NCBI RefSeq assembly: GCF_024138125.1
Contig: NZ_CP099993.1
Location: 2,108,001 to 2,172,000, forward strand
Direction of reading: 5' to 3'
DNA length: 64,000 nt
Source: Halorussus salilacus
Lineage (GTDB): Archaea > Halobacteriota > Halobacteria > Halobacteriales > Haladaptataceae
In this document: piece after piece, positions 1,928-62,347 of the stretch
How the letters are laid out: each line of letters begins with the position of its first letter
Position numbering within the stretch: position 1 is the stretch's first letter
Program-made: the position numbers and the translations under genes
The notes under the pieces: generated by a model
What the model was told of the DNA's origin: nothing
The model's database searches: none
Seen by the model: the letters and a program-made list of their open reading frames with translations, nothing else

Positions 1928-2058
1928 GAAAGCCCCCGCCCGCTGGCGGTCGCTCTGCGGGATATTCAGGCCTCTCCGCAACGCCCGGCCTGAATAGTCG
2001 CCCGCAGAGACGACCACGGGCCTTCGGCCCGCCAGCGGGCGGCCCCTTTCAGTCCCAC
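1928..2058 (-). repeat. Structured element family 1, copy A (candidate RNA)
   Basis: Read on the minus strand it begins GTGGGACTGAAAGGGG and ends GCGGGCGGGGGCTTTC. GAAAG pairs with CTTTC, then GGG faces GGG, then CCGCCCGCTGGCGG pairs with CCGCCAGCGGGCGG. Inside, CTGCGGG pairs with CCCGCAG and TATTCAGGCC pairs with GGCCTGAATA. Copies at 12441 and 21561 keep these pairings with different bases. It lies in the gap between two minus-strand genes (1827-2088), which holds no other recognisable feature. Confidence 0.75.
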
Positions 2059-2088
2059 CCCGGTGATTTATTCGGGTTCGCGAAACTC

Positions 2089-12300: not shown

Positions 12301-12386
12301 CGGTCGGGACACTCGCCCGAGCAGTCCATCCGCGGTCGCTCGCCCGAGCAGTCCATCCGCGGTCGCTCGCCCGAGCAGTCCATCCG
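12301..12386. repeat. Tandem repeat, 27-bp unit (upstream array)
   Basis: The unit CGGTCGCTCGCCCGAGCAGT plus CCATCCG occurs twice exactly at 12333-12359 and 12360-12386, preceded by a slightly longer variant. It lies directly upstream of the family 1 core copy B; a 26-bp array holds the same position before copy C. Confidence 0.85.
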
Positions 12387-12440
12387 AACCGCCCGGTGAC
12401 ACAATCTACCGGAAACGGCCGGTGAGACGACCCGCCGAGG

Positions 12441-12582
12441 GCGGGACTGAAAGGGGCCGCCCGCTCGCGGGCCGCAGGCCCGTGGTCGTCTCTGCGGGCC
12501 ACTATTTCCGCGCCGGTGCTGTGCGTTGCGGGGGAGGCGCGGAAATATCCCGCAGAGCGACCGCGAGCGGGCGGGGGCTTTC
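12441..12582 (+). repeat. Structured element family 1, copy B (candidate RNA)
   Basis: Starts GCGGGACTGAAAGGGG and ends GCGGGCGGGGGCTTTC. The outer stem GAAAG/CTTTC, GGG/GGG internal loop and 14-bp CCGCCCGCTCGCGG stem are all present. The inner stem TATTTCCGCGCC pairs with GGCGCGGAAATA, replacing TATTCAGGCC/GGCCTGAATA of copy A. The GGCCGCAGGCC side hairpin corresponds to GGCCGAAGGCC in copy A. Confidence 0.8.
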
Positions 12583-12876
12583 GAGGCCTTCACGGCTCCG
12601 AACGCGTTCGCGGTTCAGATGTAGAGCGAGCGGGCGGGGCTTTCGGGGCGTTCCCGGTTTTGGAAGCTGTCGTGGGTAGCGAGCGGGCGGGGGCTTTCGA
12701 GGCCTTCACGGCTCCGAACGCGTTCGCGGTTCAGATGTAGAGCGAGCGGGCGGGGCTTTCGGGCGTTCCCGGTTTTGGAAGCTGTCGTGGGTAGCGAGCG
12801 GGCGGGGGCTTTCGAGGCCTTCACGACTCCGAACGCGTTCGCGGTTCAGATGTAGAGCGAGCGGGCGGGGGCTTTC
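12563..12876. repeat. Alternating tandem repeats carrying the core 3' strand (downstream array)
   Basis: Two units alternate X-Y-X-Y-X. Both begin GCGAGCGGGCGGGG(G)CTTTCG, the 3' strand of the element's outer stem. X continues with AGGCCTTCACGGCTCCGAAC and a tail to GATGTAG; Y continues GGGCGTTCCCGGTTTTGGAA and a tail to GTGGGT. The composite period is about 114-115 bases. Bases 12877-13004 hold no gene. Confidence 0.8.
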
Positions 12877-13004
12877 GGGAAGTCCGTCCCAACGGAGATG
12901 TCGACTTCACACTCGAACCTGACCTCGGAATCTCATTTCACCCACCGAACACCACCCGATTCAGAGGCCAACCATTAAGTCGGGGCTGTGAGAACTGAGA
13001 CCGA

Positions 13005-21406: not shown

Positions 21407-21536
21407 CGGCCGGTGAGCCAGTCCACGGGAATCGGCCGGTGAGCCAGTCCACGGGAATCGGCCGATGAGCCAATCCACGGGAATCGGCCGGTGAGCCAAT
21501 CCACGGGAATCGGCCGGTGAGCAAGTCCACGGGAAT
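21407..21536. repeat. Tandem repeat, five 26-bp units (upstream array)
   Basis: Unit CGGCCGGTGAGCCAGTCCAC plus GGGAAT, five consecutive copies with one to three substitutions each. It ends 24 bases before family 1 core copy C. Confidence 0.9.
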
Positions 21537-21560
21537 CGGCTGACGACACGAGCCACGCGG

Positions 21561-21682
21561 GTGGGACTGAAAGGGGCCGCCCGCTCGCGTTCACTTCAGT
21601 CGTCTCGGCGACCCCTATCCGCGCGGGCGGTGCGGAGAGCGCGGATATGTCGCCGAGCGACCGCGAGCGGGCGGGGGCTTTC
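21561..21682 (+). repeat. Structured element family 1, copy C (candidate RNA)
   Basis: Starts GTGGGACTGAAAGGGG and ends GCGGGCGGGGGCTTTC. It keeps the outer stem and GGG/GGG loop. The next inner stem is CTCGGCGAC/GTCGCCGAG in place of CTGCGGG/CCCGCAG, and the apical stem is TATCCGCGC/GCGCGGATA. It lacks the small side hairpin of copies A and B. Confidence 0.8.
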
Positions 21683-21844
21683 GAGGAAAACGTAGTGACA
21701 CCAATTACGATTCAGAGCGAGCGGGCGGGGGCTTTCGAGGAAAACGTAGTGACACCAATTACGATTCAGAGCGAGCGGGCGGGGGCTTTCGAGGAAAACG
21801 TAGTGACACCAATTACGATTCAGAGCGAGCGGGCGGGGGCTTTC
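21663..21844. repeat. Tandem repeat, three 54-bp units carrying the core 3' strand (downstream array)
   Basis: Each unit starts GCGAGCGGGCGGGGGCTTTC and continues GAGGAAAACGTAGTGACACC and a tail to TTCAGA. Three exact copies are followed by a partial one and another GCGGGCGGGGGCTTTCGAGG near 21880. Bases 21845-21959 hold no gene. Confidence 0.9.
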
Positions 21845-21959
21845 TGGGCGGTCTCGGTTCAGTTCTCCTCGATTTCGTAGCGGGCGGGGGCTTTCGAGGT
21901 CGTCACTGCGAGAACCGAACTGCGAGAACAGCAGAGAAGCTACACCCCCGAGAACACCC

Positions 21960-35158: not shown

Positions 35159-35204
35159 GAAAGCCCCCGCCCGCTCGCGGTCACGCGAGCGGGCGGGGGC
35201 TTTC
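35159..35204. repeat. Perfect 21-bp inverted repeat made of the family 1 3' strand
   Basis: GAAAGCCCCCGCCCGCTCGC plus G, a GTCA loop, and its exact complement ending GCGGGGGCTTTC. Both arms are the 3' strand of family 1 in opposite orientations, so the GGG/GGG loop is replaced by full pairing. It lies in the divergent gap between the dehydrogenase and moaB. Confidence 0.75.
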
Positions 35205-35208
35205 GGTC

Positions 35209-35298
35209 CCGCCTCGCCAACGCTCCCACCTGCCGAACCCGCCTCGCCAACGCTCCCACCTGCCGAACCCGCCTCGCCAACGCTCCCACCTGCCGAAC
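35209..35298. repeat. Three 30-bp tandem repeats
   Basis: Exact copies of CCGCCTCGCCAACGCTCCCA plus CCTGCCGAAC directly after the inverted repeat, as arrays follow the core in copies B and C. The rest of 35028-35421 shows no gene. Confidence 0.9.
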
Positions 35299-48600: not shown

Positions 48601-51276
48601 GAGCACCCCACTGCTGTCGTAACAATCGTCGTCTTCGCCGTCGTCGGGCGGAACGCAGCCCCCGTCCGGGGTGGGGATGCATTGGGAATCGTACTCGTCT
48701 CCGGATTCGAACGTCCCGAGCGTGTCGTCCGGCGACTCCGCGCCGACCGAGACCCCGTCTCCGGCCTCGCAGTCGCCCTCGCAGTCCCAGTCGTCGAGGT
48801 CCTCGAAGTCCTCGTCGACCGCGTAGTTGGGGTCGGGTTCGACCGGCCCCTGGTCGGTCCACTCCGACTCGTTCATCGCGACGAACGTCGAGAAGTGCGG
48901 GGTGGTCCCGGTCACCGTGTCGTTGTCGGCGTCGACCGACGAGGGGAGTTTGACGTACGTCTGGAGAGACTCGTTGTAGGTGTACATCGCGAGGTCTTCC
49001 TCGTCGTCGACCTGCTCGTCCTCGTAGTCGAGCGAGAGGTTCGCCTCTTCGAACTCGGTCTCCGCCTCGAAGTCAAGCACTTCGGTGGCCGAGGCGTTCG
49101 CGACCGTGTCGGTCTGAATCCGCTCGTCGGACTCGTTCTCGATGGAGATTCCGTCTGCGACGTTGCCCTCGCCCGAGACGTTCACCGCGGCCCCGACCGA
49201 CTCGTTCTCCGTCTCGGTCGAGAACGTCTCGTTGCCGTCGAGAACGCCGTCGTCGTCGGTGTCGGGGTTCGTGGGGTCGGTCCCGAGGTCGAGTTCCGCG
49301 GAGTCGTTCAGACCGTCGTCGTCGGTGTCCTGCTTTCGGGGGTCGGTGCCGTTCGAGAGCTCCGCGGAGTCGTTCAGGCCGTCGCCGTCGGTGTCGGACT
49401 CGACCGGGTTCGTGGTCTCGTTCTGCTCCTCGCGGTTGGTCAGTCCGTCGCCGTCGAGGTCCTCCTCGGCGTCCGAGACGCCGTCGTCGTCGGTGTCGGC
49501 CTCCGCGGGGTCGATGCCGCGGTGGTCCTGCTCGAAGCCGTCGATCAGACCGTCGCCGTCGGTGTCGGAGTCGTGGGGGTCGAGCTCGAAGAGGTACTCG
49601 TAGTAGGTCCGGACGCCGTCGCGGTCGTGGTCCTCCGCGCCGTCGAGGACGCCGTTTCCGGACTCGTTGGCGTCGGTCCGGGTCGAGTTGCTGTCGGGGT
49701 CGAGCGGGTCGGTCCCGGTCACGTTCAGTTCGTAGTGGTCTGGCAGGCCGTCGGCGTCGAGCCGGAGCCTGTCTCGCCCCGTCTCCGGCGGCGGGTCCTC
49801 GCCGTCGGCGTCGGGGTCGTCCTCGGACGCCCACCGGCGGTTGGGGTCGGTCGCCGAGACCTCGACGTCGTTGACGGTCCGGTTCAGCGAGAGGTTCGTC
49901 TCGAACGTGCCGACGGTTCCGGGCGTCGTGTTCACGTCGAGGTCGACCGAGCGGTTCTCGCCGTTCTGCGAGAGCACGAGGGGGTCGAGTTCGTGGCCGC
50001 GAACGTCGAACACCGTCCCGCGGACGGTGTAGGTCGCGTTGCCGTCGTGACGTGGGTCCTCGCGCGTCTCGATGGTCACGTTCGGCTTCGTCGCGAGGTC
50101 CATCGCGTCGAGCGCTCGCTGGGCGTGCTTCCACGCCACCCGGTACTGGCTGACTGCGGCGTGGTCCTGCCCGCGGTCTCGAAGTCGCTGGGCTCGGTCG
50201 CGGGCCTCCCTCGCGTCGGTGACGTTCTCGCCGACCGCCTCGGCGTCGAACGAGACGTTGCGCGAGCGCAACGTCTCGTTCGCGCGCTCGGCGTCCGCGA
50301 TGGCGGTCTCGGCGAGTCGTTCGTCCGAGCGGACGAGCAGTCGCGTCACGTTCGGCGCGAAGTCCGGCGGTGTGCTCGCCTCCTTGTCGAGTTCGAACAG
50401 GCGCGCCGAGTTCGTCCGATTCGCGTCGAGGACGTACGCGAGCGAGTCGTCGAGCGATTCGAGCGCCTTCGTGCGGTGGCGCTCTGCGGACCGCCCCGGC
50501 CCGTCGAACTCGGCGCGCTGGAGCGCGTCGATGGCCGCGAGGCGGTAGTCGGCGGCCGAGGCGTCGTCCTCGACCGTGACGTTCACGTTCGCGTCGGCGA
50601 CCGCCTCGCTTCGATTCCGCATCGCCGAGCGGTTCTCCGCGCCCGGCGGCGTCTTCGAGTCCTCGACCCACTCCGGCGGACCCCGTTCCGGGTTCGAGTC
50701 CTCTATCGAACCGGGCGGGCCGCCACCACGGTCGTCTGGCGGGCCGCCACCGCGGTCTTCTGGCGGGCCGCCACCACGGTCGTCTGGCGGGCCGCTCCTG
50801 TTTTCGGATGGACCGCCATTCCGGTCTTCTGGCGGGCCGCTCCTGTTTTCGGATGGACCGCCATTCCGGTCTTCTGGCGGGCCGCTCCTGTTTTCGGATG
50901 GACCGCCATTCCGGTCTTCTGGCGGGCCGCTCCTGTTCTCGGATGGACCGCCATCCCGGTCCTCCGGCGGGCCGTTTTCGGAGTCGCCATCTTCGCCCGA
51001 TTCGTTCCGGTTCCCCGTCCGAGTCGTCTCGTTGCCGTTCCCCGTCCGAGTCGTCTCGTTCGTGACCGTCGTCGTCTGGGGTGCGTTCCCCGAACTCCTT
51101 TCGTCGTTCGACCTTCCGAAGAGGAGGCCGTCTCCCGGGAAGTCGGGTCCGATATCGACGGTCGGAGACGCCCCGCTGTCATTCGGTTCGAGCGCTGCAG
51201 ACGCCGGAGCGAACGTCGAGGTGACCAGCAGAAACGAGAAGGTGACGGCGAGTATTTTCTGCCTGTCGACATCCAT
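45601..51276 (-). CDS. Giant secreted Ca-repeat protein with toxin-like C-terminus
   Basis: A 1,891-residue exported protein. In order: a Sec signal (residues 1-28); GPPEDRNGGPSENRS repeats (about 92-192); a helical/beta region; a thrombospondin-type-3-like DxDxDG block (515-682); a Cys and Pro/Thr linker with EPPEPPEPPEEEPDPE (825-952); a second DxDxDG block (1045-1212); a beta domain; a hydrophobic segment (ASWYLGYVSYYVLSMVAGEQ, near 1430) like the pre-toxin region of polymorphic toxins; a helical region; and a C-terminal domain of about 140 residues containing GGATQYML near 1865. The last 1 kb is lower in GC than the rest, suggesting an exchanged module. Toxin activity is inferred, not shown. 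An AT-rich promoter precedes it. Confidence 0.75.
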   Translation of the reverse strand: MDVDRQKILAVTFSFLLVTSTFAPASAALEPNDSGASPTVDIGPDFPGDGLLFGRSNDERSSGNAPQTTTVTNETTRTGNGNETTRTGNRNESGEDGDSENGPPEDRDGGPSENRSGPPEDRNGGPSENRSGPPEDRNGGPSENRSGPPEDRNGGPSENRSGPPDDRGGGPPEDRGGGPPDDRGGGPPGSIEDSNPERGPPEWVEDSKTPPGAENRSAMRNRSEAVADANVNVTVEDDASAADYRLAAIDALQRAEFDGPGRSAERHRTKALESLDDSLAYVLDANRTNSARLFELDKEASTPPDFAPNVTRLLVRSDERLAETAIADAERANETLRSRNVSFDAEAVGENVTDAREARDRAQRLRDRGQDHAAVSQYRVAWKHAQRALDAMDLATKPNVTIETREDPRHDGNATYTVRGTVFDVRGHELDPLVLSQNGENRSVDLDVNTTPGTVGTFETNLSLNRTVNDVEVSATDPNRRWASEDDPDADGEDPPPETGRDRLRLDADGLPDHYELNVTGTDPLDPDSNSTRTDANESGNGVLDGAEDHDRDGVRTYYEYLFELDPHDSDTDGDGLIDGFEQDHRGIDPAEADTDDDGVSDAEEDLDGDGLTNREEQNETTNPVESDTDGDGLNDSAELSNGTDPRKQDTDDDGLNDSAELDLGTDPTNPDTDDDGVLDGNETFSTETENESVGAAVNVSGEGNVADGISIENESDERIQTDTVANASATEVLDFEAETEFEEANLSLDYEDEQVDDEEDLAMYTYNESLQTYVKLPSSVDADNDTVTGTTPHFSTFVAMNESEWTDQGPVEPDPNYAVDEDFEDLDDWDCEGDCEAGDGVSVGAESPDDTLGTFESGDEYDSQCIPTPDGGCVPPDDGEDDDCYDSSGVLDNSAPIEGGGGDGCDDDPTTTETSSPTETDSPTTTETEPPEPPEPPEEEPDPEPEPIPPSELERSVDIPDDAVEVTLTAQVSGYAEESNASAEVSLVTDTESRTVFEVVGEDGTRVTDSALVSENLDHAAGETLRIRVQTENLSGAQVESVDVEIVRDSDGDGLSNSLERMGIPIGNGERIYTDPYDADTDGDGLDDGEEVGGLVDSNRVGRDYYKLNSDPTEVDSDGDGLDDYEETYGTQTVQYTDSPADSEAFMNALYSGEDPSGALSTDDTVRTDPYDADTDGDGLDDGEELELGTNPARADTDGDGIDDDAELDAGSDPTLHDYEGPEIEVFRANFYKPPGSWKTTYQLGYSASDPSGVEETAVLKDEDVETRTDWDSGESVSRSVEFSTGSKETVLDGLSGTTVEVRASDRHDNTRSKVAMERSNVYGAMAEEFATRSDVDTTTASGYAGLLSGLTVGGGESAETLNAIAEDPFGFLESLQQLAGLVQKLGLVEKMLKALPGQLIEGVQEKQELNNPFDPDNPDEQSDYEAFRASWYLGYVSYYVLSMVAGEQATKAVKGTKTFSKTVDRLDRNGRVTQASRYLDAAKGRTTEPVKRGSYKLGSRLGEGSVWLTKESGQRILSGAKTAAGQARLYRHLRKVDGNKIEDLSPSQEARLRTMLAHTGDDGVTAINKLDKESVEDLLSLRAACSRSGFSTQAYGRSCLDKETEEDAVESVVKATNDPDVSKADIDEVVRRLQSLDTAERNKAIRALAETDSDGVQFFSDISDESMRKLLKSDLSSDTIGSSARKYGELDSDYQTKFADVLSDSDAGVSWMRAVGKSGIETSDVRTALRRVDDIDSNGHETTEFHTASKLNKKHRKQGDKPPHQEGTLVVDFETDSKDVFMRVHDSDDHPGGKWLVRRDTIDNLNSKEEVYDRLALLKKAWPSDYDHIGKLEISEGQSVKMRVSTAGEMRNKGTSEFKSGGATQYMLRQNVDDGWERIKPLEEYLSQN

Positions 51277-62191: not shown

Positions 62192-62347
62192 AAGCTAGCT
62201 ACTCCCGTCACCTATGAGACCGCGACCGCACCGCACTGCACCGCATCGCACCGCATCGCATCGCACCGCACCGCACCGCGCCCCCGGCCTCCCCGCGTGC
62301 GAACTCGCTCGCGGTGCGAGCGAGTTCGCGGCGCGTCCCGTGGTCGG
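62192..62347 (+). repeat. Dispersed element family 2, copy d
   Basis: AAGCTAGCTACTCCCGTCAC, CTATGAGACCGCGACCGCAC, then CCGCA/TCGCA short repeats, CCTCCCCGCGTG, a hairpin CGAACTCGCTCGC-GGT-GCGAGCGAGTTCG (62300-62328) and CGGCGCGTCCCGTGGTCGG. Flanks match copy b, but the arms differ while staying perfectly paired. It occupies most of the gap 62018-62420. Confidence 0.78.

Follow-up and report, generated by a model that had tools for sequence, protein, structure and literature searches.

Copies of a folded element and their anatomy

The window analysed here, a 64-kb stretch of the Halorussus salilacus genome, contains three full copies of a structured element at the places given by the initial annotation, located at 1928-2056 on the minus strand and at 12443-12582 and 21563-21682 on the plus strand, together with a fourth copy in the form of a perfect-palindrome derivative (Table 1). 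Read 5' to 3', the element consists of GGG, one pyrimidine (Y), GGG, ACT, the 5-bp helix P1, GGG, the 13-bp helix P2, an interior, P2', GGG and P1', and it measures approximately 110-140 bp, with several helices in its interior. The ends reported as common to the copies were both recovered: the 5' end GGGACTGAAAGGGG occurs exactly three times in the window, marking the three full copies, and with up to two mismatches it has four matches (the fourth being a 2-mismatch site) compared to 0.44 expected by chance, and the 3' end GCGGGCGGGGGCTTTC is matched exactly at 12 places, most of them within tandem downstream units. Predicted folding assigns the same fold to all three copies, as had been proposed (-76 to -96 kcal/mol, z -4.8 to -6.7), and the inner stems quoted at the time are indeed complementary. 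The GC-rich stem is likewise present, but P2 is one base pair shorter than the 14 bp first counted. In the palindromic copy, CCC takes the place of the 5' GGG and the GGGYGGG lead is absent.

Table 1. Element copies and associated repeats in the window (positions are those of the 64-kb stretch).
Feature	Position	Strand	Description
Full element, copy 1	1928..2060	minus	P1, GGG/GGG, P2, side hairpin GGGCC-GAA-GGCCC, inner helices
Full element, copy 2 (element under study)	12439..12582	plus	GGGC-GGG-ACT, then hairpin
Copy 2, P1	12449-12453 / 12578-12582	plus	GAAAG/CTTTC
Copy 2, internal loop	12454-12456 / 12575-12577	plus	GGG/GGG
Copy 2, P2 and interior		plus	P2 of 13 bp, side hairpin GGGCC-GCA-GGCCC, inner helices
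Copy 2, upstream tandem repeat	12312..12386	plus	27 bp x 2.8
Copy 2, downstream array	12563..12879	plus	P2/P1 3' arm repeats (GCGAGCGGGCGGGGGCTTTC) plus linker; TRF unit 115 bp
Full element, copy 3	21559..21682	plus	without side hairpin
Copy 3, inner helices			CTCGGCGAC/GTCGCCGAG and TATCCGCGC/GCGCGGATA
Copy 3, upstream tandem repeat	21407..21540	plus	26 bp x 5.2, CGGCCGGTGAGCCAGTCCACGGGAAT
Copy 3, downstream array	21663..21895	plus	54-bp units of 3' arm plus 34-nt linker
Perfect-palindrome derivative (fourth copy)	35159..35204	unstranded	GAAAGCCCCCGCCCGCTCGCG-GTCA-CGCGAGCGGGCGGGGGCTTTC

Beyond the window, the GGG/GGG internal loop is unchanged in 260 of 260 distinct copies, and the interior comes in two main types that co-occur within one genome. 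Type A, carried by the majority of Halorussus copies, consists of two stacked helices ending in TATCC...GGATA, to which a side hairpin may be added. Type B, the majority form in other genera, has the conserved core GACGTAAGCACYGCAG ... GAGGAGCGCAGCGAGTC. There is also a minimal form that lacks any interior, for example GGGTGGGACTGAAAGGGGCCGCGGGGGCTTTC.

Abundance and range

The 14-base 5' end GGGACTGAAAGGGG occurs exactly 62 times in the 3.6-Mb genome (0 for the reversed-pattern control), and the 18-base pattern GGGYGGGACTGAAAGGGG with up to two mismatches gives 92 matches (control, 1). The latter pattern is present in 119 of 155 Halobacteriales genomes at 0 to 164 copies each. A screen of 84,980 species genomes for the 5' and 3' ends at the right spacing returned at least 120 stretches, and the named ones among the matches listed are all Halobacteria. 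By our gene calls, made with a codon model trained on the element loci, the copies with the 62 exact ends are nearly all intergenic. The element thus has the high-copy, extragenic and palindromic character of REP and REPIN sequences. One 494-kb chromosomal stretch (G000 C1:1418846-1913115), in which approximately nine full copies would be expected, is devoid of the exact 5' end, and half-units lie inside it near 1513697-1522060.

An exact match to a catalogued RNA family had been named as an outcome that would speak against a new element; the window has no Rfam match at the gathering score, and a permissive search gave sub-threshold matches only. None of the papers searched gives the element sequence in a relevant context, and broader literature searches led only to the catalogue of Haloquadratum mobile genetic elements. 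A viral origin was rejected: 66 exact IMG/VR matches were mostly taken as chance, and no match was found in phage records.

Paired changes maintain the structure

The proposal of a dispersed family with covarying stems, made from three copies, is amply borne out by the larger sets, in which covariation is massive. Double changes occur at 20 of the 38 predicted pairs in the own-genome set of 43 copies. In type B, an alignment of 15 copies without gaps has 97.9% standard pairs, compared to 74.4% after shuffling and 31-45% in slid registers, and both-sided changes number 111 compared to 41 in the shuffled control. Even P1 has changed in a compensatory manner, genus-wide: GAAAG/CTTTC is replaced by CAAAG/CTTTG (G121), CGAAG/CTTCG (G031) or GGAAG/CTTCC (G052). 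Since pairing is preserved through double changes that include P1, the structure of the element is maintained.

Position relative to genes and retention of sites

When both flanking genes point the same way, the element is oriented with transcription at 82 sites and against it at 36 (four sets summed). Divergent gene contexts exceed convergent ones by 66:28, a third of copies lying between divergent genes; given this ratio, the idea that the element terminates the upstream gene was rejected. The earlier view that it is not simply the terminator of one gene is upheld. In the case of codirectional downstream genes, the final CTTTC lies at a median of 113 bp from the ATG (IQR 97-148), with almost no distance below 80 bp, and a TATA peak at -27 to -30 of the downstream gene falls between element and ATG. 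The element thus lies upstream of the promoter, and as transcripts of such genes should be leaderless, it is outside the downstream mRNA. No promoter-like sequence was seen 5' of the element by inspection, and no replication-strand preference was seen by eye in the fully listed genomes, an apparent bias in G121 having arisen as an artefact of an incomplete list of copies.

Sites are conserved between species and between genera. At 13 pairs of sites, some of them across genera, both neighbouring genes are homologous in the same orientation, and shared sites can carry interiors of opposite type (L047 and its counterpart in G010; L041 and L262), indicating that sites persist and interiors are replaced. 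At L151 and L156, entirely different stems adjoin a near-identical promoter. The element at L034 and L257 is better conserved than its flanks, a pattern for which a function in the host is no worse an explanation than mobility.

Such conservation, along with the tight spacing to the ATG, is what one would predict for a regulatory or insulator site in the DNA upstream of promoters that is under selection and whose mobility is incidental. We regard this as unlikely, if conceivable, because 28 classified sites lie between convergent genes, copy number varies from 0 to more than 160 among related genomes, and the neighbours are ordinary, unrelated chromosomal genes.

Evidence favouring structure at the DNA level

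The compensatory changes had been taken as a sign of selection on structure. That the structure is kept holds true; that it is the structure of an RNA does not follow, since the arms change together, G-U pairs are scarce, interiors are swapped and one copy has turned into a complete palindrome. As a yardstick for RNA-type evolution we used the SRP RNA from 30 haloarchaea. G-U pairs make up 0.7-3.1% in the elements but 10.4% in SRP RNA, and the ratio of both-sided to one-sided changes is 11-18:1 in the elements compared to 2:1 (2.0) in SRP RNA. Hence, the G-U-tolerant helices and stepwise compensation expected of a structured RNA were not found.

The hairpin tips also bear on this question. Most triloops are C-GNA-G with any base at N: type B has 60 such loops among 93, and the type A side hairpin 18 among 20. 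The arrangement NNGANN-GNA-nnGAnn is present at 49 of 115 type B tips compared to 0.05 expected in shuffles. GNA loops closed by G-C stems are reported to form extraordinarily stable DNA mini-hairpins (PMC4686876). In addition, the complete palindrome at 35159-35204 is what templated correction of a hairpin would be expected to yield. Taken together, the scarcity of G-U, the paired changes in the arms, the GNA tips and the perfected palindrome lead us to favour a structure at the DNA level, and the joint change of arms, the rare G-U pairs, the wholesale exchange of interiors and the palindrome would be accounted for by copying of DNA hairpins and conversion between them.

A regulatory or small RNA of defined structure, produced together with the downstream gene or close to it, would be in line with the orientation bias relative to that gene and with a strand-specific fold. 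Indeed, G-T mismatches outnumber A-C mismatches 77:17, which points to the G-rich strand as the folding strand and leaves room for a weak contribution of RNA. However, a TATA peak downstream of the element, the copies between divergent genes, the want of a promoter-like sequence before it and of an Rfam match, and a mode of change unlike that of SRP RNA make an RNA quite improbable as the main explanation. Strong covariation can stem from the DNA level, without a structured RNA having to follow from it, and the G-U test against SRP RNA distinguishes the two here.

Flanking repeats and head-to-head pairs

Two of the window copies are flanked on each side by tandem repeats, with units of 26-27 bp upstream and of approximately 54 bp downstream. 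A degenerate form of the 26-mer upstream of copy 3 recurs at many other element copies, and copies elsewhere frequently have degenerate 26-bp repeats upstream and units of 51-57 bp downstream. Each downstream unit is composed of the 3' arm and one among several recurring linkers; the array of copy 3 comprises 3.4 exact 54-bp copies, followed by a final 3' arm at 51-bp spacing. Copies are mainly singlets in the Halorussus salilacus genome, and 15 head-to-head pairs with 28-39 bp between the 5' ends were found in several genera.

Several downstream 54-bp units in genus g7 of family f5 (L372, L374, L377, L385, L392) contain a TATA-like TTTATAA, and such arrays may multiply promoters. An (ACCGC)12 tract at 62219-62279 of the window resembles the complement of the G-rich module GCGGTGCGGTGCGG, which sits upstream of elements in other genera. 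The window holds two more tandem arrays, 45 bp x 4.4 within a large ORF (50777-50974) and 30 bp x 3 just 3' of the palindromic copy (35208-35298). Finally, a second double-hairpin element, GTGGTTCGAGAGAGC..GCTCTCTCGTCATCACGAAAATC..GATTTTCGAACGAC, is inserted into type B hairpin tips (L365, L366, L368, L209, L380), recalling the insertions of SMR-A into palindromes.

Invariant G tracts and a possible quadruplex

Most constant bases of the element belong to four G3 tracts of a single strand, the arrangement by which a G-quadruplex is recognised in sequence. All four are exact in 56 of 61 own copies and 102 of 138 copies from other genera. The first tract, before Y, lies outside the hairpin and was absent from the patterns that fetched the first sets, yet 56 of the 61 own copies and 128 of the 138 other-genus copies have it, compared to a G frequency of 0.08-0.49 at positions -8 to -12 of the same sets. 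Haloarchaea contain molar intracellular K+. The element might possibly form a K+-stabilised quadruplex, in which tracts 1 and 2 would combine with the GGG/GGG loop (tracts 3 and 4) to stack three quartets between P1 and P2. Such a fold would explain why any folding interior suffices. Three copies that lack the hairpin (L224, L390, L393) have only three separate G tracts, which speaks against a quadruplex as indispensable. The invariant tracts make for a specific and cheaply testable prediction in organisms with molar K+.

Recent dispersal and exchange between copies

Close pairs of copies point to recent dispersal: L026 and L039 share 97% identity along 198 bp in unrelated flanks. Similarity in such pairs begins 5-13 bp before GACTG and ends 0-5 bp past CTTTC, with the single exception of one pair in which it extends into a downstream unit. 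Neither a clean empty site nor a target duplication was obtained, two element-less orthologous sites in G010 being too diverged to define a boundary. The analysis turned up no mobilising enzyme.

The hairpin ends, the location between genes, the inverted pairs with their 28-39 bp spacers and the insertion of other palindromes into the element recall non-autonomous IS200/IS605 derivatives (PATEs, which occur in haloarchaea; PMC3119063) or RAYT-driven REPs, but mobilisation by a Y1 HUH transposase is already weakened to the point of being very improbable, since Y1_Tnp is absent from copy-rich G010 and G035, and hence not needed, and present in copy-poor G007 and G015, the element motif was not found near the two Y1 genes of the own genome, and the 5' side has no GTAG/GTGG foot.

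An OB-fold gene next to plasmid copies

On plasmids of Haloarcula, a gene encoding an OB-fold protein that resembles RPA/SOSS-B has the element 490-630 bp upstream, pointing away from the gene, and OB-fold homologues (31-44% identity) flank the element similarly in Haladaptatus and Halopiger. Overall, gene and element lie 400-630 bp apart on plasmids of Haloarculaceae, Haladaptataceae and Natrialbaceae (L295-L299, L430-L438, L441; L442-L450, L452). In a genome-wide sample, the element is 400-557 bp upstream at 10 of 30 OB-fold loci (7 of 7 loci of the Haloarcula type and 3 of the remaining 23). Gene and element possibly constitute a plasmid origin module. The plasmid protein was rejected as mobiliser of the chromosomal copies, being absent (E 1e-10) from the copy-rich genomes G047 (53 copies) and G067 (86 copies).

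Discussion

We lean towards regarding these sequences as a dispersed, extragenic DNA element of the REPIN/SMR kind, distributed across the haloarchaeal class and working as a structure in single-stranded DNA. Its constant part, GGG-Y-GGG-ACT-P1-GGG ... GGG-P1', would embrace any self-folding sequence, be it type A or type B hairpins, the interior being free in sequence because its job would be to join the two ends. Upon strand separation during replication or promoter melting, the G-rich strand would fold and P1 and P2 would pair, and the four same-strand G3 tracts might assemble between the two helices as a quadruplex favoured by molar K+. Spread and turnover would proceed by copying of the folded unit and conversion between copies, as a result of which arms would change jointly, interiors swap and sites persist; a trans-acting enzyme recognising single-stranded DNA could be involved. 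A candidate benefit to the host is insulation of neighbouring transcription units, or protein binding.

A bolder version holds that a dedicated haloarchaeal system recognises a quadruplex-duplex in single-stranded DNA and swaps hairpin 'cassettes' at fixed sites, with the plasmid OB-fold protein belonging either to this machinery or to a plasmid origin employing this structure as well; we consider it speculative and rather doubtful. Should the REPIN/SMR-like reading be correct, a REPIN-like family extends across a whole archaeal class and documents with unusual clarity how structure persists through the replacement of sequence. The spread of copy numbers among genomes, from 0 to 164, makes the search for the mobilising enzyme tractable.

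Several known systems invite comparison. A classical MITE, as a derivative of a DDE transposon, would have terminal inverted repeats and a target-site duplication; the element has inverted ends that are broken by GGG/GGG, and the search for empty sites gave no clean one. The attC sites of integrons are single-stranded DNA hairpins of variable sequence with an unpaired central spacer and a variable terminal structure; the likeness ends at resemblance, as no cassettes or integrase association were seen at the element. The tandem units made of a hairpin arm and one of several recurring linkers are reminiscent of BIMEs, the mosaic REP arrays, although the arrays here repeat the 3' arm only and have no known protein partner. 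Compared by description, SMR-A of Haloquadratum walsbyi is also haloarchaeal, with similar length, inverted ends and a copy number in the tens: it is approximately 110 bp long, occurs in up to 54 copies with no target duplication reported, and its mobilisation is enigmatic (PMC3119063). SMR-A copies are near-identical and target PATE/IS605 palindromes (PMC3119063), whereas the copies described here diverge widely and lie between ordinary genes. The bacterial REPINs, or REPs with their RAYTs (PMC3116915, PMC6006769), likewise have many extragenic copies with conserved ends around a variable folding spacer, common compensatory changes, inverted doublets and a presumed single-stranded working form. 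By contrast to REPINs, no link of the element to Y1/RAYT was found and its 5' foot is GGGYGGGACT instead of GTAG/GTGG; it is also archaeal and larger, with two exchangeable types of interior and an invariant GGG/GGG loop.
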